Part shown: positions 9,368 to 24,698 of the stretch, piece by piece
How the letters are laid out: every line of letters starts with the position of its first letter
Numbering within the stretch: the first letter of the stretch is position 1
Source of the DNA: Planctomycetota bacterium
GTDB lineage: Bacteria; Planctomycetota; UBA8108; JACQVS01
Direction: 5' to 3'
Assembly (NCBI GenBank): GCA_028280485.1
Contig: JANQLS010000031.1
Span: 1-64,000, forward strand
Length of the DNA stretch: 64,000 bases
Made by a program: the position numbers and the translations under genes
The notes under the pieces: model-generated
Seen by the model: only the letters and a program-made list of their open reading frames with translations
Told to the model about the DNA's origin: nothing
The model's database searches: none

Positions 9368-9545
9368 GTTTTTATTCTATGTTTTGTATACTAAAGAGAG
9401 TGAAGACTTGAGGAAGTCGTTTGGGTTATTGATCTGGCCGACCACCGAAAGAATATTGTAATTCTAACGATAGGTTGGTGCTTCGTTAAGATTGAAGTCC
9501 ATTCTCTAAATAATAAAATCTTAATATCAAATTTGTTTGAGTCCG

Positions 9546-12500
9546 ATGTTTGACGCAAGTAATAAGAACTGCCTTAAGCTCGTTACGATTGCTTTCTTCC
9601 TGAACTTAATCAATACCGATTTAAGGGCGGACGAGTACTTTCCCATTGTCGATTCCGATCTAAAAGTCTCTCTCTTCGCGGAAGACCCCTTAGTGCGTAA
9701 CCCTTGTGCGCTGACTTTTGATTCTAAGGGCCGGTTATTCGTCGGTATGGGGCCTCAGTACAGAAAGCCGAAGCCGGAAACTGGGGGGGACAGTGTTTGG
9801 TTGATGCTCGACGATGATGAAGATGGGAAAGCGGATCGTCGAATTCAATTTGCTACGGGATTTAACTCGATTCAAGGATTAGCCTGGAATGGCTCAGACC
9901 TTTGGATTGCGAACGCACCGGATATGACGATCGTAAGAGATCTCGACGGAGACGACGTTGCCGATGAGTATGTAAGGCTATGGACGGATCTCGGTAACTT
10001 AGAACACGGAATCCATGGTTTGAATTTTGGTCCTGACGGCAAGCTCTATATGTCGAAAGGAAATTCTAAAGGCTTAACGCATCCTCCGGATCGCTTAGCT
10101 CCTCGAGCTTTCCGAAAGCTTTGGGATGTGGATTCACCGGACTTGCCCGAAGCACCTCCTCCTCGAATTTCTGATCGAAAAGATTATAAGAAAAACTTCC
10201 ACAACCCCAATGATGATTGGGGGCGACAGGGAGGTGTCTTACGCTGTAATGCGGATGGGACTGAACTCGAAATCTATTCATATGGATTTAGAAATCCCTG
10301 GGATATCACCTATGACGATGGCTTCAACTGGCTCGGTACCGACAATGACCAGAACATCGGCGATAAAATATTTTCTCCGTTTTTGGGCGCACACTTCGGT
10401 TGGGGGCATTCCTGGAGCTACGATTGGGTCGGTGAAAATCATCTTCCTACGGCTCCGGCTAATGGACCTTTTTTCGAAGGTTCAGGTACTGGAGTTATCT
10501 ACTGTGGGTTGAAGGGCTACCCCGAAAAATATCGTGGGGTTTTTCTCATCAACGATTGGCTTCGTCGAAAAGTTTACATTTATCGACCGAAGTGGGAGGG
10601 GGCTCGAATGCTTCCCACGAAAACGAAATTTGATCTTTTAGCTCATGCTGGGGGTGGTCGATCGATGGGGGAAAGTCGCGGAAGGAAATTCAGTCCTGTG
10701 GATATTGAAATCGGACCGGATGGTGCGATCTTTATTTCGAGTTGGGGGCGCGAATATGGTTTGAAGTTAAAAGATGGAAAGATGGCAAACGAAGGGCGGA
10801 TCTATCGGATTTGGCCGAAAGCGTATAAGCCTAACTTAAAGAGAAACAATCGTTGGCAACTTCCAGTTAAAGAAAGAAGTCTCGCTGAACTCTTTAAGGA
10901 CTTGGGCTCGCATCTTCCTGCAGTACAAGGATTGGCTCAAAACGAATTGATTCGAAGGGGGAAGTCCAATTCAGAAGTATATTCAAAATTGATAAAGCAA
11001 ATAGGGGATTCGCAAACTTCACTGCGAAAATCGACTTGGTTGCTTTGGACTCTCGCGCGATTGAAGGTTTCTGAGAAAGACTCTTTGGCAATCGATGCCA
11101 CCTTTGACGCTCTGGCCAAATCGTCCCCCTCTCTTTCCAAGCGTATTCAAGCTATTCGAATCTTAGGCTATCGAGGAGTTTCTCAATCATTAGTTGATCT
11201 TTTAATCGATCGTGAGCCGAGGGTACGATTTGAAACTCTGCTTTCCATCCGGAGCATCGCTGGAAAACACACTCTTTCTCTGGATACAAAGCTGATTCAA
11301 AAGGTGGTGGATCTTCTTGCCGTCGAAAAAGATCGGCTGGCTTATTACGCTTGTTGGGGGGCTTTGATCGAACTCCTGAATAAGGAGCAGCGAATAAAGT
11401 TGTTGGAAGATCGTCGGCCGCAAGTCCGTCGAGGTGCTTTGTTAAGTTTGCTTGAGAAAGATGAATTGAGTTCAGTTCAAGTTCAATCGTTTGCTTCTGA
11501 TCCCGATCCAAAAACACAAGAATTAGCTAAGCGATTTTTAGCCGGTAAATCGAAAGCGATCATCAAAGGACCTCCATTGAGACCAGCTAATCGAGTGATC
11601 GCGGGTGTCGGTGCGGTTCGACCGCCAGCTCATTTCATTCGACATATCGAATCAGTCAAGGGGCCCGATGCGCTCTATACGGCTTCTCTTTTGTACCCAG
11701 GCGTTCGGGTTTACAACGATCGTTCGTATGCCTTAAAAGACGTTCCCGATGAATTGTTGGGAGATGTTTTTATTCAAACTTCCAATGACGACGGGGATCG
11801 AAGAGAAGTAAGTTTAAAACTCACTCTTTCTGTTGCCTCTGAAATTTATGTGGCTCATGACGTGCGTTTGGCTCAAAAGCCGGCATGGTTAAAAACATTC
11901 GAGAAAACTAAAATTTCCGTCACAACTGACGATGCACCTTTTTTGCTTTATAAAAAGAGTTTTCCCAAGGGCACAGTTCACATTGGGCCCAATCGCGATG
12001 ATGCGGGGCAGGGTGGCAGCTCGAATTACTTCGTGATCGTTCAGCCTCGATTGGTTTCTGAGAAAGAAGAGGCCACTTCAATTGCATCAGCTCAAAAAGC
12101 ATTAAGTGTTGGAAATAAAAAACGGGGAAGGGATCTCTTTCTATCAAAGCGAGGTGCGGGCTGTAATAATTGCCACCGCATGGAAGGTTTGGGAAATAAT
12201 TATGCCCCCGACTTGTCGGAGATTCGAAAACGTGCAACTCAAGAATTTCTGGTGGAATCGATTCTTAAACCGAGTCAAAAGATCACTGAAGGATTTGTGA
12301 CTCAAGTTGTGACCACTAAGACGGGAACCATAATTCAAGGGATTATTATTCAGGAAACCGGGAGGTCCGTCAGTCTGGCCCAAGTGGGGGGGGAGCTCAT
12401 CCACATTCCGAAAGATTTGATACTTCTTCGAGAGAGTTCTGAAGAATCGGCGATGCCTGATTTTTCAACTCTTTTGAGTGCACAGGATGTCGCGGATGTT

Positions 12501-13511
12501 GTGGCCTACTTGTACTCCGAAGTTCCTAAGCAAAAAGCTGAATCATCAAAGCCTGTTGATCAAAAGGTCTCCAAGCCAAAAATTACCGTACAAAAAACTG
12601 CTAACGTAGGAACCCCTAGCAAAAGAATAGATCAGCGACCAGGTATTCGTTTTATAAAGGAAAAGGGAAAGTTAGTTATAGTTATTGATGGTTGGGTTGC
12701 GGCGACTTATCAGTATGAACATCCCAAAACCAAGCGACCTTTCTTCGCAAACCTTTATTCCTTGAGTGATAAGCCGATTAAAGTTTCCAGAAACTTTCCC
12801 CCCATCGAAGGAAAGGATGTGATGGATCACGGAAGTTATCATCCTGGTATTTGGTTGGCGTTTGGAGATATTGGTGGTGCTGATGTTTGGAGGATGAAGG
12901 CACAAGTGAAGCAAGTCGATCTTTCAGAGGTGAAGGCGGGGAAAAATCGAGCGAGCTTTAAAGTGAAGAATCACTATTTGAAAGGTGGGGCTCTGATTTG
13001 TGAAGAGGAATGTACTTACTCGATTGTTCGTACTCCAATGGGTTACTGGATTGGGTATGACTCACAATTTTCTTCAAAGAATCAGGACTTCTATTTTGGT
13101 GATCAAGAAGAGATGGGCTTAGGAATCAGAATCGCAAGTTCCATCACAGTGAAAAATGGGGGTGCCATGTTCAATAGTGTGGGCGGAATCGACGAAAAGG
13201 GCACTTGGGGGAAGGCTGCTGATTGGCTGGATTATTACGGCACGATCGATGGGCGAGAAGTTGGGATGATGCTGATGGGGCATCCTGGGAATTTTAGACG
13301 CCCGTGGTTTCATAGCCGAAATTATGGCGCATGTGTTCTCAATCCATTTGGTCGAAAAGCCATGAAGCAGGGGGCAGTCAGCAAGATCGTTGTAAAGAAA
13401 AAGGACTCCTTTAGATTTCGAGTGGCCGTTTTTATTCACGATAAAAAACAAGGTGAAAAGCTCGACCGGGAAGCGGTCTTCAAATCCTACATAAAATCGA
13501 CTCAAGAATAG
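9546..13511 (+). CDS. PVC-type membrane-bound dehydrogenase / HEAT / cytochrome c protein fused to a DUF6807-like domain
   Basis: A 1,321-residue multidomain exported protein. ATG 9546 is preferred over the in-frame TTG at 9537; neither has a strong ribosome-binding site. A signal peptide ends near residue 27. Residues about 30-430 form a glucose/sorbosone-dehydrogenase-like beta-propeller (ALTFDSKGRLFVGMGPQYR, NFGPDGKLYMSKGN, GFRNPWDITYD, IEIGPDGAIFISSWGR). Residues about 440-670 are HEAT-like helices. A cytochrome c domain holds CNNCH near residue 872 with DLSEI and VESILKPSQ downstream, typical of planctomycete haem proteins. After a Lys/Ser/Pro linker, the last 300 residues (DHGSYHPGIWLAFGDIGG, FGRKAMKQG) resemble the PmoA-like DUF6807 family, normally a separate protein. 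Inferred role: periplasmic oxidation of a sugar-type substrate coupled to cytochrome c. Confidence 0.85.
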   Translation: MFDASNKNCLKLVTIAFFLNLINTDLRADEYFPIVDSDLKVSLFAEDPLVRNPCALTFDSKGRLFVGMGPQYRKPKPETGGDSVWLMLDDDEDGKADRRIQFATGFNSIQGLAWNGSDLWIANAPDMTIVRDLDGDDVADEYVRLWTDLGNLEHGIHGLNFGPDGKLYMSKGNSKGLTHPPDRLAPRAFRKLWDVDSPDLPEAPPPRISDRKDYKKNFHNPNDDWGRQGGVLRCNADGTELEIYSYGFRNPWDITYDDGFNWLGTDNDQNIGDKIFSPFLGAHFGWGHSWSYDWVGENHLPTAPANGPFFEGSGTGVIYCGLKGYPEKYRGVFLINDWLRRKVYIYRPKWEGARMLPTKTKFDLLAHAGGGRSMGESRGRKFSPVDIEIGPDGAIFISSWGREYGLKLKDGKMANEGRIYRIWPKAYKPNLKRNNRWQLPVKERSLAELFKDLGSHLPAVQGLAQNELIRRGKSNSEVYSKLIKQIGDSQTSLRKSTWLLWTLARLKVSEKDSLAIDATFDALAKSSPSLSKRIQAIRILGYRGVSQSLVDLLIDREPRVRFETLLSIRSIAGKHTLSLDTKLIQKVVDLLAVEKDRLAYYACWGALIELLNKEQRIKLLEDRRPQVRRGALLSLLEKDELSSVQVQSFASDPDPKTQELAKRFLAGKSKAIIKGPPLRPANRVIAGVGAVRPPAHFIRHIESVKGPDALYTASLLYPGVRVYNDRSYALKDVPDELLGDVFIQTSNDDGDRREVSLKLTLSVASEIYVAHDVRLAQKPAWLKTFEKTKISVTTDDAPFLLYKKSFPKGTVHIGPNRDDAGQGGSSNYFVIVQPRLVSEKEEATSIASAQKALSVGNKKRGRDLFLSKRGAGCNNCHRMEGLGNNYAPDLSEIRKRATQEFLVESILKPSQKITEGFVTQVVTTKTGTIIQGIIIQETGRSVSLAQVGGELIHIPKDLILLRESSEESAMPDFSTLLSAQDVADVVAYLYSEVPKQKAESSKPVDQKVSKPKITVQKTANVGTPSKRIDQRPGIRFIKEKGKLVIVIDGWVAATYQYEHPKTKRPFFANLYSLSDKPIKVSRNFPPIEGKDVMDHGSYHPGIWLAFGDIGGADVWRMKAQVKQVDLSEVKAGKNRASFKVKNHYLKGGALICEEECTYSIVRTPMGYWIGYDSQFSSKNQDFYFGDQEEMGLGIRIASSITVKNGGAMFNSVGGIDEKGTWGKAADWLDYYGTIDGREVGMMLMGHPGNFRRPWFHSRNYGACVLNPFGRKAMKQGAVSKIVVKKKDSFRFRVAVFIHDKKQGEKLDREAVFKSYIKSTQE

Positions 13512-13633: not shown

Positions 13634-13946
13634 CCGGACACCTTACCTATCAGAGTGAAGTTTCCTTCCACCCCCAACCCCTTACCAGGTAAGGGGGAGT
13701 GTCCGAATTCATCCCCTCAAGACCGAACACTTCATCCCCCAAATCCCTTACCAGGTAACGGATTGTGGAGCCCTTGGGAAGCTGATGAGCTCGTATTCGG
13801 TCAGCTTTAAGCGGACAGTTTACCTTTCAAAGCCACCTCAAATCCCTTACCAGGTAAGGGTGGGTGTTCGTAAATGTGCCCCCAAATCCGAACAATTTAT
13901 CCCTCAAAGTCGTTACCAGGTAGCGGGAGGGGGAGCCCTTGGGGTG
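13634..13946. repeat. Duplicated unit with four CCCTTACCAGGTAAGGG palindromes
   Basis: The noncoding stretch after the giant gene carries four copies of a 17-bp palindrome centred at 13687, 13753, 13852 and 13918, spaced 66, 99 and 66 bp. Copies 1 and 3 are perfect (CCCTTACC-A-GGTAAGGG). Copy 4 reads CGTTACC-A-GGTAGCG, where a C-to-G change is matched by a G-to-C change in the other arm. Flanking text repeats too (GGACAnnTTACCTnTCAnAG; CCGAACAnTTnATCCC; GAGCCCTTGGG), so the whole is a diverged tandem duplication of a roughly 165-bp unit with two palindromes each. Function unknown. Not CRISPR: spacing is irregular and the spacers are themselves related. Confidence 0.8.
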
Positions 13947-14002: not shown

Positions 14003-14033
14003 TTGTCACAGGCGGTGGGGAGGGTCGTAAGAG
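14003..14033 (+). promoter_or_regulatory. Bipartite promoter-like element, copy 1
   Basis: TTGTCACAG, 14 bases, CGTAAGAG. The identical boxes with the identical 14-base gap recur at 14599-14629, while the bases between them differ. This is how an alternative-sigma promoter looks. It precedes a small lipoprotein gene by about 70 bp, close to an ECF sigma gene at 16.2 kb. Confidence 0.6.
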
Positions 14034-14104
14034 GAGGTGTAAGGAAGATCGCCAAGGCGGTTCAAAACACTAAAACCAAAAACACAGTCAGGAAGGTCAA
14101 AACC

Positions 14105-14431
14105 ATGCTTAATTCAAAATCACTCGCACGCTCAATCTTCTCACTCCTCACCTTAAGCGTATTAGTTTCTTTTATCGGGGCCGGTTGCGTGGCTCCTCGA
14201 GGCGCAGCAGTCGTCGAAACCACCTACGAAACTACCTCCTATCCCCGCTCAAGCCTCTACCTAAGCTTGCACCATAAAAAGAAGTACTACGGTTCAAAAC
14301 ACTACTACAAAAAACCTGTCTGCAAGAAATCGTACGGATACAAAAAGCCTCACTACAAAAAAAGCTACTCCCACAAGAAAAGTTACTCTCACAAAAAACG
14401 AAGCTACTCTCGCTCCCGCAGCCGTCGCTGA
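14105..14431 (+). CDS. Small lipoprotein with Lys/Tyr/Ser/His-rich basic tail
   Basis: A 108-residue predicted lipoprotein. The frame is open further upstream, but ATG 14105 has GGAAGG 8 bases before it and starts a proper signal peptide. The lipobox is IGAGC (Cys near residue 31). The mature part begins APRGAAVVETTYETTSYPRS and then becomes a low-complexity basic tail built from KKSY, SHKK and SRSR units, with roughly half its residues Lys, Tyr, Ser, His or Arg. No family recognised. A membrane-tethered polycation could bind acidic polysaccharide, nucleic acid or peptidoglycan; this is inference. It has its own promoter-like element and terminator, so it is a single-gene transcription unit. 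Confidence 0.72.
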   Translation: MLNSKSLARSIFSLLTLSVLVSFIGAGCVAPRGAAVVETTYETTSYPRSSLYLSLHHKKKYYGSKHYYKKPVCKKSYGYKKPHYKKSYSHKKSYSHKKRSYSRSRSRR

Positions 14432-14475
14432 TAAGACTCACCCCTCAACCAAAATGAACTTTCAACCCCTGACAT

Positions 14476-14504
14476 GGGTCCGGAGAAATCCGGGCCCTTT
14501 TTTT
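14476..14504 (+). terminator. Rho-independent terminator
   Basis: Stem GGGTCCGGA / TCCGGGCCC (one G-U pair) with GAAA tetraloop and T7 tail, 45 bp after the basic lipoprotein gene. Confidence 0.88.
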
Positions 14505-14598
14505 ATGGGTGTCCGATTGTGACTAATTCTCAAAAGTGTACACACAAAGGTCTAGCCAATTCTCAGCCTCAAAAAACTTTCAAAAACTTTTCTCAATC

Positions 14599-14629
14599 TT
14601 GTCACAGCCTTGGGAAGGGACCGTAAGAG
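14599..14629 (+). promoter_or_regulatory. Bipartite promoter-like element, copy 2
   Basis: TTGTCACAG, 14 bases, CGTAAGAG: the same boxes and gap as at 14003-14033. Limited similarity continues after the second box (purine-rich GAGGnGTnAAG). It lies about 90 bp before the poly-Gly lipoprotein gene and probably drives it and the following YadA-head-like gene. Confidence 0.6.
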
Positions 14630-14716
14630 AGGGTGAAGAGGCTGGTAAGTAAAAACAAAGTGAACCAGCCCAAACCATAACCCGCCAATCATGGCAACCT
14701 TAGGAAAGGAAAAATC

Positions 14717-14977
14717 ATGAACCTCGAAAACCTCTTCGTTCTGAAGACGGTTGTCTCTTCAGAGATCTCAAGACTTAAATTCTTTAAGTCAAAAACGAAT
14801 CGCAGTTTTGTTCGCGGGCTCTTTTCACTCTTAGTTTTAACTGCCGTTACCGTCGCCTTTACTGGTTGTGGAGGTGGAGGTGGTGGAGGAGGAGACGACG
14901 AGGAAATCCAACCCGTCAATCCTGATGAAGAAAACCGTTGGGATTTTATGAACTGGGACGAGGGCGTGTGGGGTTAA
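14717..14977 (+). CDS. Small lipoprotein with poly-Gly and acidic tail
   Basis: An 86-residue predicted lipoprotein of no known family. ATG 14717 follows AGGAAAGGAAAAATC. The N-region is unusually long (about 30 residues, rich in Lys, Arg and Ser) before the hydrophobic core LFSLLVLTAVTVAF and lipobox FTGC. The lipidated Cys would be followed by eight glycines, then an acidic Asp/Glu segment and a short Trp-containing end (WDFMNWDEGVWG). Poly-Gly after the lipid anchor is a common flexible tether. No terminator separates it from the next gene 82 bp on, so both are probably in one operon under promoter copy 2. Its acidic tail contrasts with the basic tail of the neighbouring lipoprotein. Confidence 0.68.
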   Translation: MNLENLFVLKTVVSSEISRLKFFKSKTNRSFVRGLFSLLVLTAVTVAFTGCGGGGGGGGDDEEIQPVNPDEENRWDFMNWDEGVWG

Positions 14978-15059: not shown

Positions 15060-16052
15060 ATGATCCGTTCAATCAGCCAAAAAAGCTTCTCAGGTCGCCA
15101 AGTACTCACCGTTCTCACCGTCATGGCCCTCAGCATCACTGTTCTCACTCAAGCCGTCGACATCCCTAACCTCTTTCAAGCCGGCGACACTGCCCGCGCC
15201 GACGACGTTAACCAAAACTTTCAAGTAATCGCCGACGCCATCGAAGCCTTAGAACTTGACCTCGCTACCGAACGTTCACAACGTGAAGCTCTCGAAGAAA
15301 GAATTGAAGATTTAGAATCGCAAAGCAATGAATCCAATCCCTTGTTTGATTTCGTAAGAATCGAAGAGGGTGATCTCGAAGGCGTTGCCGGTCCTCATAT
15401 TGTCTTTGAAGGTGCCAATATACACATTCGAAGTGGATCGGACTTCACCGACGACGACATATCCAGTGGCCAGGAGCCGTTGGGCTTAGGCAATCTGATC
15501 ATCGGCTACAACGAAGCTCCCCAAGACCTATCTGCCGGTGAACGATCTGGCTCACATAATCTTGTCCTGGGTGAACTCAATCGCTTCAGCAGTGTCTCTG
15601 GTATCGTCGCTGGAAAAAATAACGAAATCACCGCTCCTTCAGCTATGACCTTGGGTGGTCAGTTCAATCGAGCAACCGGAGATTTCGCAGCAATCCTCGG
15701 CGGTGGTGGTGCAACACCTAACCTCACAAACGTCGCTTCTGGAAACTACGCCACGATCTCTGGTGGATTCCGAAATGTCGCCAGTGGAAGTCAAGCTTCA
15801 GTCACCGGTGGAAGCAACAACCAGGCAGCGGATTTCCTCTCTTCGGTCACCGGGGGAACTTCTAATGTAGCCAATGGTACCGGAGCAACTGTCTCTGGTG
15901 GAGCCGGAAACATTGCAAGCGGTTCAAACTCAGCGATCAGTGGTGGTCAAAATGGAAGAGCTGAAGGAGGCGCTTCCGCAATCAGCGGTGGCTTAGACCA
16001 AACCGTCAACAGCAACTTCGACTGGCGAGCTTGTGACGTCACCTGCAACTAA
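15060..16052 (+). CDS. Exported coiled-coil protein with YadA-head-like repeats
   Basis: A 330-residue exported protein. The signal peptide ends near residue 32 (TQAVDIP). A segment NLFQAGDTARADDVNQNF leads into a coiled coil (about 55-92). From residue about 160 it consists of roughly 14-residue units of the form GxxNxAxGxxAxVxGG, for example NVASGNYATISGGFRN and NIASGSNSAISGGQNG. These match the left-handed beta-roll head repeats of YadA-type trimeric adhesins. There is no YadA membrane anchor: the protein ends after DWRACDVTCN with two cysteines. In true trimeric autotransporters the coiled coil follows the head; here it precedes it. Inferred role: trimeric surface or matrix fibre. It is the last gene before a strong terminator. 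Confidence 0.75.
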   Translation: MIRSISQKSFSGRQVLTVLTVMALSITVLTQAVDIPNLFQAGDTARADDVNQNFQVIADAIEALELDLATERSQREALEERIEDLESQSNESNPLFDFVRIEEGDLEGVAGPHIVFEGANIHIRSGSDFTDDDISSGQEPLGLGNLIIGYNEAPQDLSAGERSGSHNLVLGELNRFSSVSGIVAGKNNEITAPSAMTLGGQFNRATGDFAAILGGGGATPNLTNVASGNYATISGGFRNVASGSQASVTGGSNNQAADFLSSVTGGTSNVANGTGATVSGGAGNIASGSNSAISGGQNGRAEGGASAISGGLDQTVNSNFDWRACDVTCN

Positions 16053-16078: not shown

Positions 16079-16115
16079 ACGCAGGCCAGGTGCTCCACCT
16101 GGCCTGCGTTTTTTT
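16079..16115 (+). terminator. Rho-independent terminator
   Basis: Perfect 14-bp stem (ACGCAGGCCAGGTG and its complement) with loop CTC and T7 tail, 27 bp after the YadA-head-like gene. Confidence 0.93.
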
Positions 16116-16227
16116 GTTTAATTCATTCCTCTTGATTTCCCAATCTCACCCTTCCCCTCGAACACCCGTCCTCTTTATAATAAATAGGACGATTCCTTTT
16201 ATTTGAAAGAACACCGGGGGTGATCCA

Positions 16228-16983
16228 TTGAATCAAGACGATAAGCATCTCAGTCAAATTTCCACCTTGTGGTCGGTTGTACGAAAGGCTCACGGAGATC
16301 TCACTCTCGATGCCCGATCCGCCCAGGAAGAATTATTGATGAAATATGGCGGAGCCATTCGGCGCTACTTGTTAGCTTGTTTAAAGAACGAAGATGCCGC
16401 TGATGATGTTTATCAAGAATTCTCTCTCAAGTTTATTCGCGGTGATTTTAAAGGAGCAGATCCCGATAAAGGGCGTTTTCGATCCTTCGTTAAAACTTGC
16501 CTGTTTAGAATGATCGTCGATCACCAGCGCGGGGATAAAAAGCGAAAAAAAATGGGGGCCATCCCCGAGGGTCACGAACTAGAAGATTTAAATCCTGATG
16601 ATCAGGATGCCACTTTCGTTCAAAGCTGGAGAGAAGAGCTTCTCGCTCGGAGTTGGGATGCACTCAAAACATATGAAGAAGAATCCCAACGACCTTACCA
16701 CACCGTCTTGAGGTACCGCGCCGATCATCCTCAAGCAAGATCTCAAGAGATGGCTGAAGGATTAAGTCAAATCCTCGACCGAGAAGCTAACGCTGCTTGG
16801 GTCCGACAAACATTAAAGCGAGCACGGGATGAATTTGCTCGTATGCTCTTAGAGGAAGTCGGGCATTCACTTGCAGCCACCTCTTTACAAGCCGTTGAAG
16901 ATGAGCTCAGTTCTCTCAATTTATTAGAGTACTGTAAGCCTGCCTTAGAACGCCTCCAGGGAGATGAACCTCATGGTTCCTGA
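16228..16983 (+). CDS. ECF-type RNA polymerase sigma factor
   Basis: A 251-residue sigma-70-family protein with a TTG start preceded by GGGGGTGA. Region 2 is clear: ELLMKYGGAIRRYLLACLKN, DDVYQEFSLKFIRGDF and the DNA-melting part GRFRSFVKTCLFRMIVDHQR. Region 4 is near residues 175-215 (LDREANAAWVRQTLKRARDEF). It is longer than classic 180-residue ECF factors, as is common for planctomycete ECF factors linked to kinases. The downstream kinase gene overlaps its end by 11 bp, so translation is probably coupled and the kinase is the likely regulator in place of an anti-sigma factor. Candidate target promoters lie just upstream at 14003 and 14599. No such promoter precedes the sigma gene itself. 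Confidence 0.88.
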   Translation: MNQDDKHLSQISTLWSVVRKAHGDLTLDARSAQEELLMKYGGAIRRYLLACLKNEDAADDVYQEFSLKFIRGDFKGADPDKGRFRSFVKTCLFRMIVDHQRGDKKRKKMGAIPEGHELEDLNPDDQDATFVQSWREELLARSWDALKTYEEESQRPYHTVLRYRADHPQARSQEMAEGLSQILDREANAAWVRQTLKRARDEFARMLLEEVGHSLAATSLQAVEDELSSLNLLEYCKPALERLQGDEPHGS

Positions 16984-18967
16984 TTCTGACTCTGGGACTG
17001 AATCTGTTCCCCCTGAAGATTCCTCGCATTCTGATGACAAAACTGAACAGGTAGCACCGGAAGATTCTCTCGACGTATCATCTACCGGCTTTGCTCCGTC
17101 GTTTCATGCCGTCCAAAAAGATGCTCCTCCCATACCGAAACCTCAAGGAAGGAAAGCTGGAATTGTTTTTCCGAAAGTCGATGAGGTTATCGATGACTTC
17201 AAGATTCTTCAAGTCTTGGGGGAAGGAGCCTTCGGAGTTGTCTATTTAGCTGAACAACTTTCCCTCGGGAGAAAGGTGGCCTTAAAGATCACCTCCGATC
17301 GAGGTGAAGAAGCCCGAACGATGGCTTCACTCGAACATGAAAACATCGTTCGAGTGTTTTCTGAAAACCGAGATTCGGAGCAAGGATTTCGGCTCATCTG
17401 TATGCAGTACATCCCGGGTCCGACTCTCGCCGAAGTGATCGAGTATTTAAATCGACACGATCCTAAGGAGTGGAACGGGAAACTCTTTATTCAAGCGGTG
17501 GATGAACTCTCGAAGGGATCAACCACTTTAGATCCGGTGGCTCTTCGCGATCGCGAGTACCTTCGGCAAGCTGATTTTCCTACCGTTGTAGCTTGGATTG
17601 GGGCTCGCTTAGCCGAAGCCTTAGAAGTCGCTCATTCGAATCGAGTTCTCCATCGCGATATCAAGCCGGCCAACATTATTCTCAATCAGTATGGTCGACC
17701 GTTGCTGGCCGACTTTAGTTTATCTTTTCAGACTGAAAAAATTGAAGCAGGTTCAGATGTCCTCTTTGGGGGCACGCTCGCTTATATGTCTCCTGAGCAT
17801 CTCGAGGCGTTCAATCCCTCCCATCCCACAGAACCGGATCAAGTTGACGAACGATCCGATCTCTACAGTTTAGCGATTGTTCTCTACGAATTTTTATGTG
17901 GAAAGAGAGCCTTTGAACCTAAACGAACCGGTGCGGATCGAATAGAAGAACTCAACCTGCTCACTGAAGAACGAAAAAAAGGATTACCAGAGTTACCCGC
18001 TCATTTAAACAACCAAGAATTAGAAATCCATCGCAGTCTACTACGCGCTGCCGATGGGGATCCTCGAAAAAGATACTCTACATGCCTAGAATTGGCTCAA
18101 TCATTAGAGGGAGGGATCGTTTTAAGAACGACTCAACAAAAATTTCCCAAAGAGAATTGGTTGATCCGTTTGGGGCAGAAAAAGCCCTATCTGGGATTGT
18201 TCCTCTTAGCTGTGTTCCCTCACTTTTTGGGTAGTGTGGTTAATATTTCTTACAACGCGTCAATGATTACTGAAGATTTAAATGTGGCTCAAAAAAACGC
18301 TTTTTTCAAATTGGTTCTCATCTACAACTCTATTGTTTATCCGATTTGCTTGGGGCTTTTAGTTTGGTTGATTCACCGAATGATGAAACTTAATCAAAGT
18401 TTAAAGCTGACCGATGATTTCGTCGCGATAAGAGGAAGATCAGCTCGGTCCCAGGTTTTATTATTGCCTAAAAGAGCGGCTACGCTTGCGTGTTTGGGGT
18501 GGTTGCCGGGAGCGATCTTTTTCCCGTTAGGAATCGATATTATCGCTGATGGGATCACTTCTAATGATTATTTTCATTTTGGAATCTCGTTTACCATTTC
18601 AGGATTGATCGCCTTGACCTATTCCTTCTTAGGTCTTGCTTGTTTATCGTTGGGATCTTTTTATCCGCGGATGTGGCCGGAACCGGGTGAGTTTCCACAG
18701 AAGGTTGGGGAAGAGTTGATCACTCAAACCGCTTGGTTGAGCTTCTTCAAGATTCTCGCAGGCGTGATTCCTCTGGCTGCGGCCATGATTTTAATTGTGT
18801 TTAGCGATCTCGGAAAGAATCAACAGTCGAGTTCCGATTTACAATTTAGAGTATTAGCGGTGACACTGATTGTACTGAGTGGAATTGGATTTCAATTTGC
18901 CGATCGAATTGTTTCGCGCTTGTCGAATAAGATTCAGATTATGCGGGCAGGGGGGAGTGAGAATTAG
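16973..18967 (+). CDS. Membrane-anchored Ser/Thr protein kinase (PknB-like) coupled to the ECF sigma factor
   Basis: A 664-residue kinase. ATG 16973 is preferred to 16964 because GGGAG lies about 9 bases upstream of it but abuts the other. After an acidic, disordered N-terminus (about 65 residues) the kinase domain shows the glycine loop LGEGAFGVVYLAEQ, catalytic Lys in VALKIT, HRDIKPANIIL and SPEHLEAF in the activation segment. The metal-binding DFG appears as DFS (LLADFSLSFQ). The C-terminal 270 residues hold about six hydrophobic segments in three pairs (for example LGLFLLAVFPHFLGSV, LLVWLIHRMM, LAAAMILIVF), so the kinase is membrane-bound with no large extracellular domain. By analogy with ECF-STK pairs it should phosphorylate or otherwise gate the sigma factor. 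Confidence 0.88.
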   Translation: MVPDSDSGTESVPPEDSSHSDDKTEQVAPEDSLDVSSTGFAPSFHAVQKDAPPIPKPQGRKAGIVFPKVDEVIDDFKILQVLGEGAFGVVYLAEQLSLGRKVALKITSDRGEEARTMASLEHENIVRVFSENRDSEQGFRLICMQYIPGPTLAEVIEYLNRHDPKEWNGKLFIQAVDELSKGSTTLDPVALRDREYLRQADFPTVVAWIGARLAEALEVAHSNRVLHRDIKPANIILNQYGRPLLADFSLSFQTEKIEAGSDVLFGGTLAYMSPEHLEAFNPSHPTEPDQVDERSDLYSLAIVLYEFLCGKRAFEPKRTGADRIEELNLLTEERKKGLPELPAHLNNQELEIHRSLLRAADGDPRKRYSTCLELAQSLEGGIVLRTTQQKFPKENWLIRLGQKKPYLGLFLLAVFPHFLGSVVNISYNASMITEDLNVAQKNAFFKLVLIYNSIVYPICLGLLVWLIHRMMKLNQSLKLTDDFVAIRGRSARSQVLLLPKRAATLACLGWLPGAIFFPLGIDIIADGITSNDYFHFGISFTISGLIALTYSFLGLACLSLGSFYPRMWPEPGEFPQKVGEELITQTAWLSFFKILAGVIPLAAAMILIVFSDLGKNQQSSSDLQFRVLAVTLIVLSGIGFQFADRIVSRLSNKIQIMRAGGSEN

Positions 18968-19085: not shown

Positions 19086-19141
19086 AGGATCGTAATTCCA
19101 TTAAAACTCAACAACCAGACACCAGTTATATTCTAACTTTA

Positions 19142-19263
19142 GGGAGTGAGTGAGCGTAGCGAACATTCACGAAGGAGTCGCCGATAGCGACGACCATTTA
19201 AAACTGAGGGAGTGAGTGAGCGTAGCGAACATTCACGAAGGAGTTGCCGATAGCGACGACCAT
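19142..19263. repeat. Two 56-bp direct repeats, 66-bp period
   Basis: Copies 19142-19197 and 19208-19263 (GGGAGTGAGTGAGCGTAGCG... to ...GACGACCAT) differ at one base. That base lies in a small hairpin GTCGC-CGATA-GCGAC and becomes GTTGC, keeping a G-U pair. They end 2 bp before the stop of the CotH gene. Confidence 0.8.
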
Positions 19264-19265
19264 CG

Positions 19266-22200
19266 TTACTGTCGAAGCCCCTCCACACATCCCATCGTAT
19301 CCACTCCGGCATCGATGCCGACATCGGGATACGGCGTTTCTGGAGCGGGGCCGCCCAGGAAGAGGTGCACTAAGATTTTGATCGCATCGTCGGTCTCTAT
19401 ATCTTCATCGTTATCCACATCCGCCGCGTCTAAACAAGTGATCGTTTGCCCTCGGAATTGATAGAGTAAGGATGTGATCGCATCTCCAATCTCGACGACT
19501 CCATTGAGATTGACGTCACCGCGGACGAACCGCTCTAATGTTGGAAGTAAGGTCAAAGGCTCAGAATTTGAAATTTTGCCATCGGTGTTTTGGATTTGAA
19601 TGAGTTTCTCTCCGGCATCGCCAAAGGGAATGCTAAATTGCATTCGACTCGAACTGATGCGCTCGGCTCCTTCAACGACTTCGCCATCTAATAAGACTTC
19701 GGCTCCCAGTAGAAATCCAGTTCCCACGATTTCAACGAGAGTTTCAGGTTCTCCCTGGTCGGGGGTGAGAACGCTGATCGTCGGTGCAGGGAAATTGAAA
19801 GTCGTCGTCACCTTGATTTGATCGGTATCTAAAAGCGATCCGTTAAAGTCATTCGCTAATAGCAGAAGATCGTTTTCACCCGGTGAAAGTTCGATGGTGG
19901 TCTCCCAAGAGGTTGTTGAATCCCAATCAAAATCAGGAAGAGGGTAACCGGCGAATACCAATTCCTTTACATCTACGGGAGCTCTTCCCTCGAGGGTGAC
20001 GATTGGGGTCGACACTTCAAAATCTTGCCCGTTGTTGGTGGTGATCTCGATAGGAACATTCGCTGGTTTCTGACCGTTTACAAATGACCTTCGAGATAAC
20101 ATCCAGTTGAGCCCCGCTTGGAAGGCGGATTCCTCTCTGGCGAGTAGTCCGTAATGTTGAGTCCAGCGAGAGATGTTTCCCGTCACAAAAGTTTTCTCGA
20201 CGAGATCCGCCATGTGACCGTGAAACATACGTTGGTACTTCGGCGATTGAAAAATCTTGGCTAAAGTGATCGAGCCCCAAAGAGAGGAATTCGTTCCGCG
20301 AGAAAAGGCAAAGTCATTGTCCCAGTAGAACCACAAAAACTTACCGTCTTCCGGTCGTTGATAGATCAAGGCGTTGTGGTGGTTGCCGGCGTACCAGTAA
20401 GTATCATTGATCCCCGTTAATGAATGTAAGACGTACATTCTGACGACTTGCTCGGTATCGATCCAATCTTCGGCATCTCGAATCACCGTGGAAGTGGAGC
20501 CACCCAAGAATTTCCCGAGTTCGATGAGATTTTGATAATTGTCGCGATCGAGATTGTTCTCTTTCAAAAAGTTCCAACGATAAGCTTCTTTATCGTCACC
20601 TAAGTTTCGTAAGTCGGTTCCGATGACCCCGTCAGGCTGAGGTCGCTTTAATCCTTCAGGGCTTCCGTTATTCGTGGTGGTGGGATAGTAGATGAGTTCA
20701 ATCTTGAACATGTCTCCATCGCTTCCGTTTTTAAACTGAGAATCGAGGAAGACTTTGGTGTATTTACCCATCATCAGTAAACACTCGCCATCTTGAGCAC
20801 TTCGAGGCGCGATGACGTAAGAAAGGTCATCGTACATGCCGGGGATACCTCCGGCGATGTTACCGATGTGTTTCACGATCATTTCATCTTGCCCGGTCGG
20901 GCCACGACCCAATCCCCATCCTCCGGAGCGATCCATCGACACTGTTCGGTGGACTCCACGGAACAATTGCATTTGATCGAATTGAACACTGAAACTTACT
21001 CGATGCCCACCGGGGCGACCGCGTTCACTTCCCTTGAGACGAACTCCAACATTGTAGAAAATTTCAGACTCGCGATAGATGACCGTTCCCCTCAGTCGTT
21101 CGTTACTCATCACATTGGTATCGGTGTGAAGGTAGGTAGTATCAGAGGGAGTCATCAGGATGCGAATGTGATGGAGAGCATTCGAACGTGCTCGGTTATC
21201 TTCTACTCGAATGAGAGCTCTGGATTCTGGCCCTTCTTTAGGGAAGTGAGTCGTTTCTCCTAAATCATCTTCAGCTTCGATATAGAAGTGAACCAGTGTT
21301 CCTCCGCTTTGACCGGGAATCGTTCCACGATAAAAACCATCCGCGTCTAAGCTCATCGATCGCGAGGACCACGCCCCACCTGTGTTGTAACGAATTCTGG
21401 CGGCAGCCACGCCGTCGGGATCTTCGATTTGTGCTTCGATCGCAATAGACTCTCCTGACCTCGGAACAGCGGGGGAGTGAATCATGTTGTCGTAAGTGGG
21501 TCCTAAATTACCCGTAAGGACGGAGTTTTCAGCCCCGGGAGTGCCTTCGCTTTCTGGGCCATCGATTCGAATCGTTTTGGCGACCTTGTGAAAGTAAAGC
21601 CGAGTGTGAAATTGATTGGATCCCGCTAACCAACGAGCCCGAAATCGAATTTCGTATTCTGTGCCGATGTTTACAGCTTCACCATTAGCTAAAGTCGTTT
21701 CTAAGTGGTTGTGCATGTGTTCCGTCGGGCCAGTGGCAACCAAGTGTAAAACTTTGTTGCCGGCATCATCGGGATCATCGATGACTCGACTGTGGCGATG
21801 GTTTCCTAAGAGACGCCACTTATCGGCTCCCGTTTCGAAATCGCCGTTTTGTAAAAACTGAACCGCAGCTCCATCGGGGTTTTCGACCACGGAGAGATCG
21901 TCGACCAGAATTTCACCGGCATCCAATAAGCCAATGATGAATTCTCGCCACTGGCTGGGGGCTGGGCGATTCACTGCTCGTTGGCGATAAGAATAAGTTT
22001 TCCAAGTGGATTGTTGAGTTTCATCGCTTGGAGCCCAAGCTTCAGGCTTCGAGTTGTCGGCGTCGGGATCTAAGAGTTCTAAACTAGATCCACCGCCATC
22101 GGCGTAACTCGCCCAGCGACCACCGTCATAGTACTCTACGCGATCGGCGAGGTTGCCATTCGCATCTTCGAGCTCTAATTCATCGCTTGAATTGGATAAG

Positions 22201-24698
22201 TTACCTCCGAATGTACTCAGGATATTGAGCCCGGGGTATTTGAGTTGAAGGAACTCTTTATCCTCAGCGATCACTAAATACTCACCCGCATCGATCGTAG
22301 TGCCATCCGGGAAATCAAAGTTGATTCCGTCATCGAATTTCCAACCGGTTAAATCGACCGTCTCATTACCGCGATTGAAGAGTTCGATCCAGCCACTGGG
22401 TGATTCTCCGAAGGGGCGCCCGGGATCGGTTAGAATTCGACTCGATAACTCGGCGCCGAAGACTACGTCACTTGAATTCGCACTCCCCTGGTGAACTTCA
22501 ACCGCGAACCAGTTTGTTCCGACTTGAAGGTGTTCGGTGGGAAGAGCAATGAGTTCAGAGGAAGTCGCATTCCCGACTCCAGGACTTGCGAAAGTCGAAG
22601 GAGTGACTCCCGTTAAAGGGAGGTTGAACGATTCGACCGGTTGTCCGTTTAAATAGAAGACAGCGCCGTCATCGATAATGTGGCGAAGAGACAGTTCTGC
22701 ATTCGAGGGTAAGGCGTCGATTTCAAAAGTTGTACGGAAGTAAAAGGTGACGTTCCCTAAGTCGATTTCGGTGGCTTTATTCGCGGGAAGTGAAGAGCCT
22801 TCGTTGTAGAAAAGTGCGGGGCGAGTGATCCAGGATTCACCGGCATTATTTCCGGTTCTCCAACTTGTTCCCTCGATTCCATCATTGGGAGAAGTGAATT
22901 CCCAATTTCCTTCCATCTCGATGAGAATGTCTTCTTCGTAAGTCGGAGGAGTGGCTGCAATCGGGAAGGGGTGGTAGTGAATTTCGTTGATAATCACATC
23001 GGTTTGGAAGCTAAACGTATTATCCGCTCCCGGAGTGGGTTGATTGGGAAATTGCCATCTTCCTTCGAGGCCTTCCGTTTTTCCTCGGTGATCGTCTCGC
23101 AAGTAAACGGCATCGATCAATTGAGTTTCTGAAGCGTCGAAGAGGAAGATTTTTTCGTTCGCTACAATCCCGGCAGGAAAATCATCTTGGTGAATGACAA
23201 TGTAGTCACCCGGTTGAAGTGGGGGACCGTTAAGGGTGTGACTGGCACCCTGATTGTTGGAGGAGTGTAGTACCAATCCCGCAACTGAAATGGCGGCTTC
23301 ACCCTGATTTTGGAGTTCGATCCACGCGTCGTTACCGGGAACTCCGTAAGCTTCGGTAAATCGAAGATGAATCGATTCAGTGTTAACAATCGATTGGGTG
23401 AAATAATCTTGATTGTTTTGAGTCAGGCTGTGGTGCCTTGAAATTTCGTCTGAAGATAAGGCGCGGTTCCAAATGGCGACTTCATCGATGACGCCTTTAA
23501 AGCCTTGTAAGCGACCCGCCATATTTCCGATATAGGCTGAAGTTGAACCCCCACTTTCAATTTCGCTTCCTCCGGGAAATGTTTTGGAATAAACCATAAC
23601 GCCATCGAAAAAGATTGCTTTTAATCCAGAAGCGCTGTGATAGGTCGCGGCGATGTGGTGGGCCGAGCCATCCGTCAGTTCAGCAAAGCTCGGTCGTCCA
23701 TCTTGCCCGTCGAGGGGCATATCTAATTCACTGTAGATATTTTCAATGTTGAGGCCGAAAGAAAGAACAGGCCCCGAGTAAGCTCCTAAATCAGGATCGC
23801 TTCTTCCGTCATCGTTGCCATCATTTTGTAGAGACAAAACGATACGATGACTTCCATCCTCTTTTCGAAAGATGGAGTCGTTGTCATCGGCATCTCCGGT
23901 CCAATCAGAGATGATCAGTGCTTCAATTGTGATTCCAGTCGTAAATTCAAAGGAATCGGATACGCCCGAGCCGACGTTGACCTGAGCGTTGTGAGTGTTG
24001 TCAAACTCTAAGGCCTTATCTCCAACTAGTCCGTCTACTCGATCGGTGGTGGATCCTTTAGGACCTGAGTTGCCCGCATAAGTATCGATGACCGTACTTC
24101 CCGATCCTTCAAAGTTCCAATAGGAAACGATGCCTTCCGGAGCGGGGGGAGGTCCGCCAGGAACGGTAAAATTGATGCGGCCGGGGGTTCCGTTGACTTC
24201 TTTACTGAACGACCAGTTTTCATTGTTCCCACTCCCAGCATCCGGATGGATTTTACTGAGAGTTACTCCTGATCCGTCAGGTGCAACCGGCCATCCACCC
24301 GAATCGCGATAACGTACGCGGTCCATGCGACGGTTGCTGTTATTGAAAATTCTTAAGGTTTCTCCTCCGTTGTCTAGGCGACCCAAGAAGGGGCCCATCG
24401 CATTTGAAAAACCGGTAGCTTGAGAAAGAGCGGTGGGATTGATGGCGACAACAATATAGCCCTTCCCAGGAACGATCGTTCCTTGGGGAAAGGTAAATTC
24501 AATTCCACCATCGATGCGCCAATTGGAGATGTCGAGATCGACGGCCATCTGGTTATGAAGCTCTACCCATTCCATCTGTGCTTCTTGAGTTTGAGGATGG
24601 TACTGGATCTCATTGAACACGAGAGTGCTATCTGCTTGAGCTTGACCGGAAGCAAGGAAGAGCACAGTGAGGAGAGCTAAATAACTAAAACGCATCAT
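19266..24698 (-). CDS. CotH kinase-like giant secreted protein with lamin-tail, LamG, IPT and dockerin-like domains
   Basis: An 1,810-residue secreted protein with signal peptide at residues 1-22. Order seen: lamin-tail domain (VFNEIQYHPQTQEAQMEWVE, about 24-175); LamG-type lectin fold (about 188-425, ending in the GVIDEVAIWNRALSSDEI signature); second lamin-tail domain; a beta-sandwich with a DGAVFYLNGQPV motif (about 600-735); third lamin-tail domain (FGESPSGWIELFNRG); a carbohydrate-binding-like module; a CotH domain (about 1200-1560, RLKGSERGRPGGHR and WFYWDNDFAFSR, the conserved Asp pair); IPT/TIG fold; and a dockerin-like pair (FVRGDVNLNGVVEIGDA, DVDNDEDIETDDAI). CotH proteins are atypical protein kinases in spores; the role of secreted planctomycete versions is unknown. 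Inferred: extracellular, Ca-stabilised polymer-binding protein. Confidence 0.85.
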   Translation of the reverse strand: MMRFSYLALLTVLFLASGQAQADSTLVFNEIQYHPQTQEAQMEWVELHNQMAVDLDISNWRIDGGIEFTFPQGTIVPGKGYIVVAINPTALSQATGFSNAMGPFLGRLDNGGETLRIFNNSNRRMDRVRYRDSGGWPVAPDGSGVTLSKIHPDAGSGNNENWSFSKEVNGTPGRINFTVPGGPPPAPEGIVSYWNFEGSGSTVIDTYAGNSGPKGSTTDRVDGLVGDKALEFDNTHNAQVNVGSGVSDSFEFTTGITIEALIISDWTGDADDNDSIFRKEDGSHRIVLSLQNDGNDDGRSDPDLGAYSGPVLSFGLNIENIYSELDMPLDGQDGRPSFAELTDGSAHHIAATYHSASGLKAIFFDGVMVYSKTFPGGSEIESGGSTSAYIGNMAGRLQGFKGVIDEVAIWNRALSSDEISRHHSLTQNNQDYFTQSIVNTESIHLRFTEAYGVPGNDAWIELQNQGEAAISVAGLVLHSSNNQGASHTLNGPPLQPGDYIVIHQDDFPAGIVANEKIFLFDASETQLIDAVYLRDDHRGKTEGLEGRWQFPNQPTPGADNTFSFQTDVIINEIHYHPFPIAATPPTYEEDILIEMEGNWEFTSPNDGIEGTSWRTGNNAGESWITRPALFYNEGSSLPANKATEIDLGNVTFYFRTTFEIDALPSNAELSLRHIIDDGAVFYLNGQPVESFNLPLTGVTPSTFASPGVGNATSSELIALPTEHLQVGTNWFAVEVHQGSANSSDVVFGAELSSRILTDPGRPFGESPSGWIELFNRGNETVDLTGWKFDDGINFDFPDGTTIDAGEYLVIAEDKEFLQLKYPGLNILSTFGGNLSNSSDELELEDANGNLADRVEYYDGGRWASYADGGGSSLELLDPDADNSKPEAWAPSDETQQSTWKTYSYRQRAVNRPAPSQWREFIIGLLDAGEILVDDLSVVENPDGAAVQFLQNGDFETGADKWRLLGNHRHSRVIDDPDDAGNKVLHLVATGPTEHMHNHLETTLANGEAVNIGTEYEIRFRARWLAGSNQFHTRLYFHKVAKTIRIDGPESEGTPGAENSVLTGNLGPTYDNMIHSPAVPRSGESIAIEAQIEDPDGVAAARIRYNTGGAWSSRSMSLDADGFYRGTIPGQSGGTLVHFYIEAEDDLGETTHFPKEGPESRALIRVEDNRARSNALHHIRILMTPSDTTYLHTDTNVMSNERLRGTVIYRESEIFYNVGVRLKGSERGRPGGHRVSFSVQFDQMQLFRGVHRTVSMDRSGGWGLGRGPTGQDEMIVKHIGNIAGGIPGMYDDLSYVIAPRSAQDGECLLMMGKYTKVFLDSQFKNGSDGDMFKIELIYYPTTTNNGSPEGLKRPQPDGVIGTDLRNLGDDKEAYRWNFLKENNLDRDNYQNLIELGKFLGGSTSTVIRDAEDWIDTEQVVRMYVLHSLTGINDTYWYAGNHHNALIYQRPEDGKFLWFYWDNDFAFSRGTNSSLWGSITLAKIFQSPKYQRMFHGHMADLVEKTFVTGNISRWTQHYGLLAREESAFQAGLNWMLSRRSFVNGQKPANVPIEITTNNGQDFEVSTPIVTLEGRAPVDVKELVFAGYPLPDFDWDSTTSWETTIELSPGENDLLLLANDFNGSLLDTDQIKVTTTFNFPAPTISVLTPDQGEPETLVEIVGTGFLLGAEVLLDGEVVEGAERISSSRMQFSIPFGDAGEKLIQIQNTDGKISNSEPLTLLPTLERFVRGDVNLNGVVEIGDAITSLLYQFRGQTITCLDAADVDNDEDIETDDAIKILVHLFLGGPAPETPYPDVGIDAGVDTMGCVEGLRQ

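Follow-up and report, generated by a model that had tools for sequence, protein, structure and literature searches.

A single planctomycete genome encodes dozens of ECF sigma factors. Several ECF groups are linked to Ser/Thr protein kinases, among them ECF43, with EcfP/PknT and EcfK/PknS, and the planctomycete groups ECF59, ECF61, ECF62 and ECF217 (PMC8999054). A literature search with little coverage of subscription journals returned no paper on the target promoter or targets of the planctomycete kinase-linked groups. The locus described here lies in a window of 64,000 nucleotides of planctomycete DNA and resembles these groups in gene arrangement, the level at which the comparison is drawn: a sigma factor and a Ser/Thr kinase are encoded side by side in a planctomycete host, and no anti-sigma factor was recognised beside the pair. 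In EcfP the acidic DAED motif of region 2.2 is replaced by the uncharged STTA (PMC8999054), whereas the window sigma factor largely keeps an acidic sigma-2.2 motif (AADD, with two acidic residues in most of its homologues), so that charge restoration in the manner of EcfP is not the obvious mechanism.

A second described system with points of likeness is ECF41, whose published promoter consists of TGTCACA, a spacer of 16 +/- 1 bp and CGTC, and whose known targets are carboxymuconolactone decarboxylases, oxidoreductases or epimerases encoded near the sigma gene (PMC3426412). The window system shares with ECF41 a small number of target genes, often beside the sigma gene, but differs in its link to a Ser/Thr kinase and in its predicted targets, which are exported proteins of structural appearance. 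We consider it about 85% probable, from comparison of sequences, that the ECF sigma factor whose gene lies at 16228-16983 uses a bipartite element in this window as its promoter. For one clade of planctomycete ECF factors linked to a kinase, the analysis thereby predicts both promoter and regulon: it supplies a promoter consensus that holds across families, a short list of target genes and a possible autoregulatory arrangement, which would make the output of the clade predictable in the genomes that carry it.

The element and the genes downstream of it

The features of the locus, with one gene from another contig of the same genome, are as follows.

14003..14041, + strand: site A, predicted promoter TTGTCACAG-N14-CGTAAGAGGAGGTGTA (genome search; PWM score 25.8)
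14105..14431, + strand: gene A, 108-aa exported protein, probable lipoprotein (sequence, composition)
14476..14504, + strand: intrinsic-terminator-like hairpin and T run after gene A (hairpin scan)
14599..14637, + strand: site B, predicted promoter TTGTCACAG-N14-CGTAAGAGAGGGTGAA (genome search; PWM score 27.3)
14717..14977, + strand: gene B, 86-aa probable lipoprotein, a Gly run followed by an acidic tail (sequence, composition)
15060..16052, + strand: exported protein of 330 aa whose repeats are similar to a left-handed beta-roll (sub-threshold Pfam match)
16079..16116, + strand: strong terminator-like hairpin of 14 pairs with a T run, parting unit B from the sigma-kinase genes
16228..16983, + strand: gene for a 251-aa ECF-type sigma factor that is proposed to recognise sites A to D (Sigma70_r2; homologues linked to the element)
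16964..18967, + strand: Ser/Thr protein kinase with hydrophobic C-terminal segments (Pkinase, 3.1e-30)
C60:62888-66025, - strand: ECF fusion gene on contig C60 (L043 of G000)

As a sequence-only reading of this DNA had reported, TTGTCACAG-N14-CGTAAGAG occurs twice on the + strand, at 14003-14033 and 14599-14629 (0.00 expected in shuffled windows), with gap bases that agree at 5 of 14 positions. The distances to the next ATG are 71 bp (ATG at 14105) and 87 bp (ATG at 14717), inside the 70-95 bp given at that time, and the sigma ORF does start the stated 1.6 kb further on. The extent of the element had however been understated. When the window sites were aligned with a third site, which lies on contig C60 and has one mismatch, the conserved block grew to GTCACAR-N14-CGTAAGAGRRGGTGWA, the downstream part of which is 16 nt long and has four exact copies in the host genome (9.37 Mb, 205 contigs). 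The shorter form matches exactly only at 14003 and 14599, while the extended form is found exactly four times, the two additional copies being site C (C60:66282) and site D (C27:33730, with the -35 box CCGTCACAG). Frequent occurrence at random positions, which that reading had named as an outcome that would speak against it, is not what the host genome presents: no further copy of the extended form was found there at up to three mismatches, and the reversed control gave 0. Weak variants in the host genome (two to three mismatches) stayed near the level of the reversed control and were set aside, except for that on C27, which was accepted as genuine because the full downstream block is present. 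Near-matches to the downstream block on C44 and C126 were rejected; they have no -35 box and lie inside or overlap coding sequence.

Site A is made up of the -35 box TTGTCACAG and the -10 block CGTAAGAG with a purine block downstream of it, and all four sites lie 58-87 bp upstream of the ATGs of genes with signal-peptide-like starts. A PWM scan of the 64 kb window returned sites A and B only, with no element upstream of the sigma gene itself. Directly upstream of site A, at 13668-13943, is an imperfect direct repeat of 111 nt (77% identity) that contains the near-palindrome CCCTTACCAGGTAAGGG; the region before it, at 9537-13511, encodes a 1324-aa fusion of DUF7133, cytochrome c and DUF6807.

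The designation of the small genes as lipoprotein genes holds insofar as the products are exported and probable lipoproteins, but their lipoboxes (IGAGC, FTGC) are imperfect. Protein A, whose mature part is strongly basic with a net charge of about +21 and is rich in Lys, Tyr, His and Ser, matched no Pfam or NCBIfam family, and for protein B the NCBIfam match was sub-threshold only. The 'YadA head' proposed for 15060-16049 was an overstatement, since Pfam gives only LbR_Ice_bind at 26.3 bits, below the cut-off of 30. This gene is probably the second of the site B unit, as the two are co-oriented, separated by 82 bp and have no + strand terminator between them. The terminator-like hairpins at 14476 and 16079 divide the locus into three units, namely gene A, gene B with the 330-aa protein, and the sigma-kinase pair, in which the two genes share 20 nt, the kinase gene starting before the sigma stop.

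Site C precedes a gene for a secreted basic protein that is a homologue of protein A, and site D a 73-aa acidic probable lipoprotein (C27:33817-34038). Proteins A and C align with a score of 102, against 41.6 +/- 7.8 in composition-preserving shuffles (0 of 2000 reached it), and by this measure are homologous beyond composition. The mature pI is 10.2 for A, 10.7 for C and 4.1 for both B and D; A and C are basic, Lys/Tyr/His/Arg-rich proteins, and B and D are short, acidic, probable lipoproteins. Neither site C nor site D is near the window sigma gene, and the ECF gene that does neighbour site C, at 255 bp, is a different one. The predicted regulon would in this way reach beyond the window locus by two genes, C and D.

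The sigma factor and its homologues

The window sigma factor matches Sigma70_r2 over residues 37-104 (30.7 bits against a cut-off of 24) and has no Pfam region-4 match, although a helix-turn-helix-like stretch is conserved in the alignment of its homologues. The NCBIfam sigma70-ECF model covers residues 32-202 at 37.4 bits, below its cut-off of 42.9, and a single-sequence AlphaFold model (pLDDT 48.5) was too poor to use. As the host genome has 74 sigma region-2 matches, adjacency proves little alone, and homologues of the window sigma factor were therefore searched in 392 planctomycete genomes. A clear homologue (E<1e-30) is present in 11 of the 392; the sigma tree is poorly resolved around the window sequence.

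In five of these genomes (G349, G251, G158, G211 and G051), which belong to another family than the host and constitute one related group that is not fully independent, the sigma homologue is 35-40% identical to the window protein and a nearby gene for an exported protein carries the same element at identical spacing. Examples are TGTCACAG-CTACAGAAGTGGGC-TGTAAGGGGAGTGTC in G158, TGTCACAA-CTCGGAGGGGGGCC-TGTAAGGGAATTGTC in G349 and TGTCACAA-CTCCAAAGGGAGCT-TGTACTGGGAGTGTC in G051. The strict pattern TGTCACAR-N14-YGTAMKRGRR gave 12 matches in seven of the 392 whole genomes, and six of the seven, including the host, are among the 11 sigma carriers. All eight matches in the five relatives lie between directly beside the sigma gene and 13.5 kb from it. 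The corresponding Fisher p for co-occurrence is about 7e-10 and rises to 2e-8 when the host genome is left out; both values apply to a pattern chosen after five of its sites had been seen and to related genomes that are not independent. The match in the seventh genome, G269, sits at a CRISPR repeat-spacer junction and was dismissed as chance; the array, in L262, has the repeat ATATGAACGAAGACCTGTAATAGAAGGGATTGCGAC. In the genus to which G251 and G349 belong, seven genomes are without a clear sigma homologue, and these are also without the element.

A separate test used a PWM built from the four host sites only. It ranked a relative's site first in all five loci, with scores of 19.0-20.3; the highest background score in 516 kb was only slightly lower, at 18.3. 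Between host and relatives the boxes agree at 13.7 of 19 positions and the gap at 3.5 of 13. Scanning the loci of the relatives gave 16 sites (four each in G349 and G251, three each in G158 and G211 and two in G051), and these together with the four host sites present two short boxes at the same spacing (about 16 bp) with an unconserved spacer. When other gap lengths were allowed in three loci, the best matches kept this spacing. All sites checked in G349, G051 and G158 are upstream of genes with a signal-peptide-like start. The cross-genome comparison thus supports the core of the sequence-only reading, that the repeats are predicted promoters of the adjacent ECF-kinase module for exported proteins. 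The search with a 13-15 base gap that it had proposed (TTGTCACAR-N13..15-CGTAAGA) gave three matches in the 392 planctomycete genomes, all in the host. A GTDB-wide scan for TTGTCACAR-N14-CGTAAGAGR (257 Gb, possibly excluding the host) gave five matches in other genomes, which were taken as chance because they lie inside coding sequence or before unrelated genes.

The kinase gene is directly upstream of the sigma gene in all five element-bearing relatives, and in each of them one site heads a co-oriented series of genes, for an M48 peptidase, exported proteins, the kinase and the sigma factor, with operon structure deduced from orientation and short gaps. ECF factors are usually autoregulated in such a manner, and the position of this site suggests that the sigma-kinase genes are autoregulated in the five relatives.

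Conservation beside the same sigma factor is found in these five genomes, but not in those with the closest homologues, G344 (47% identity), G313 (45%) and G376 (42%), where the strict element is absent. A search for the element around the sigma genes of G344, G376, G231 and G229 returned nothing above shuffled sequence. In G313 a different repeated element, TGTAACA-N12-CGCAAAT, lies beside the sigma gene. It has exactly two copies in the 8.9 Mb genome, upstream of two paralogous exported Pro/His/Cys-rich proteins (L198, about 9816-11830, - strand); its -35 part is like that of the window element while the spacing is different, and the likeness is no more than suggestive. The link between sigma factor and strict element is accordingly not universal.

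Other candidate readers of the element

With 74 region-2 matches the host genome offers many alternative candidates. Foremost among them is the ECF protein encoded on C60, a membrane-anchored fusion of 1045 aa (sigma, TM and about four carboxypeptidase-regulatory-like domains) with intact region 2 and region 4 domains, whose gene is divergent from site C at the distance of 255 bp given above. In the five element-bearing relatives, however, the best match to the C60 sigma factor is only generic (E 1e-6 to 2e-11) and it is the homologue of the window sigma factor that adjoins the element; moreover, relatives of the C60 protein occur in 372 of the 392 genomes as against seven for the element. Without an orthologue where the element occurs, the C60 protein was rejected as the reader, and recognition by any other of the roughly 74 sigma factors is considered unlikely. 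Many of the C60-sigma relatives across planctomycete genomes are in long open frames.

The identity of the -35 heptamer with that of ECF41, together with the similar spacing (PMC3426412), raises the question of an ECF41-type sigma factor driving the element. The -10 box is YGTAAG instead of CGTC, and the window targets are unlike those known for ECF41 (PMC3426412). None of the 74 host sigma factors as read has the DGGG/NPDKL signature, a few being incomplete, while Pfam detected no SnoaL-like domain in four sigma candidates of medium length, nor did Pfam or NCBIfam detect a SnoaL-like C-terminal extension in the window sigma factor. Given a shared -35 box but no ECF41 signature or domain in the sigma factors checked, ECF41 was discarded as the reader and is considered very improbable.

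It is also conceivable that the block is an operator, or an mRNA-leader element, for another regulator encoded near the sigma gene. Conservation in the host genome continues for 8 nt past CGTAAGAG, which is more than usual for ECF promoters, and the purine block is Shine-Dalgarno-like and could act in the 5' UTR. In the relatives, however, this downstream block is looser while the -35 box, the spacing and the -10 box stay fixed, and an asymmetric bipartite form at fixed spacing is ECF-like. A leader peptide in the purine block was rejected on reading the sequences, which contain no consistent leader ORF; at site A a GTG within the block runs straight into TAA. We regard such an operator or leader as very improbable.

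Proposed mechanism and putative surface products

Recognition of the element by the window sigma factor is thus preferred, because the signal recurs next to this sigma factor in distantly related planctomycetes, where it precedes genes for other exported proteins as well as the genes of the sigma factor and kinase. Promoter activity and sigma-DNA recognition, like kinase control and a role in the envelope, are inferred. In this model the -35 box TGTCACAR would be bound by sigma domain 4 and the -10 box YGTAAG, at a distance of about 15-16 bp, by domain 2, and transcription would start within or just after the purine block. The sigma factor would switch on at least four units in the host genome, all for small exported proteins, and at site B the acidic protein B would probably be co-made with the beta-roll-like protein. 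The adjacent kinase, encoded next to the sigma factor in the relatives and with an overlap of the two genes in the window, would most likely gate sigma activity on an envelope signal.

Just after the sigma-kinase pair, on the - strand at 19266-24698, is the gene for an 1810-aa secreted protein with lamin-tail, concanavalin-like and CotH kinase domains; it has no copy of the promoter element and lies 5 kb from the gene for protein A, which is rich in Ser, Lys, His and Tyr. CotG/CotB-CotH is a spore-coat phosphorylation module of Bacillus subtilis (PMC7821199), and the Ser/Lys/Tyr/His repeats at the end of protein A have a broadly similar character, a likeness that serves as a lead only. By analogy with Bacillus CotH/CotG, the CotH-domain protein and protein A are a possible extracellular kinase-substrate pair, although the likeness is one of composition and gene neighbourhood and, unlike in Bacillus, no spores are implied. 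It may be speculated, with considerable reserve, that a small surface matrix of complementary charges is under the control of the kinase-gated ECF clade and is perhaps patterned by extracellular phosphorylation, the latter idea deriving from the CotH-domain protein encoded next door. If so, basic proteins and acidic lipoproteins would be co-made from one very stringent promoter. Adjoining the CotH-domain gene, at 19140-19265, GGGAGTGAGTGAGCGTAGCGAACATTCACGAAGGAG is repeated twice, and similar CGTGAGCGAGGGTGAA-type strings are present on many other contigs.
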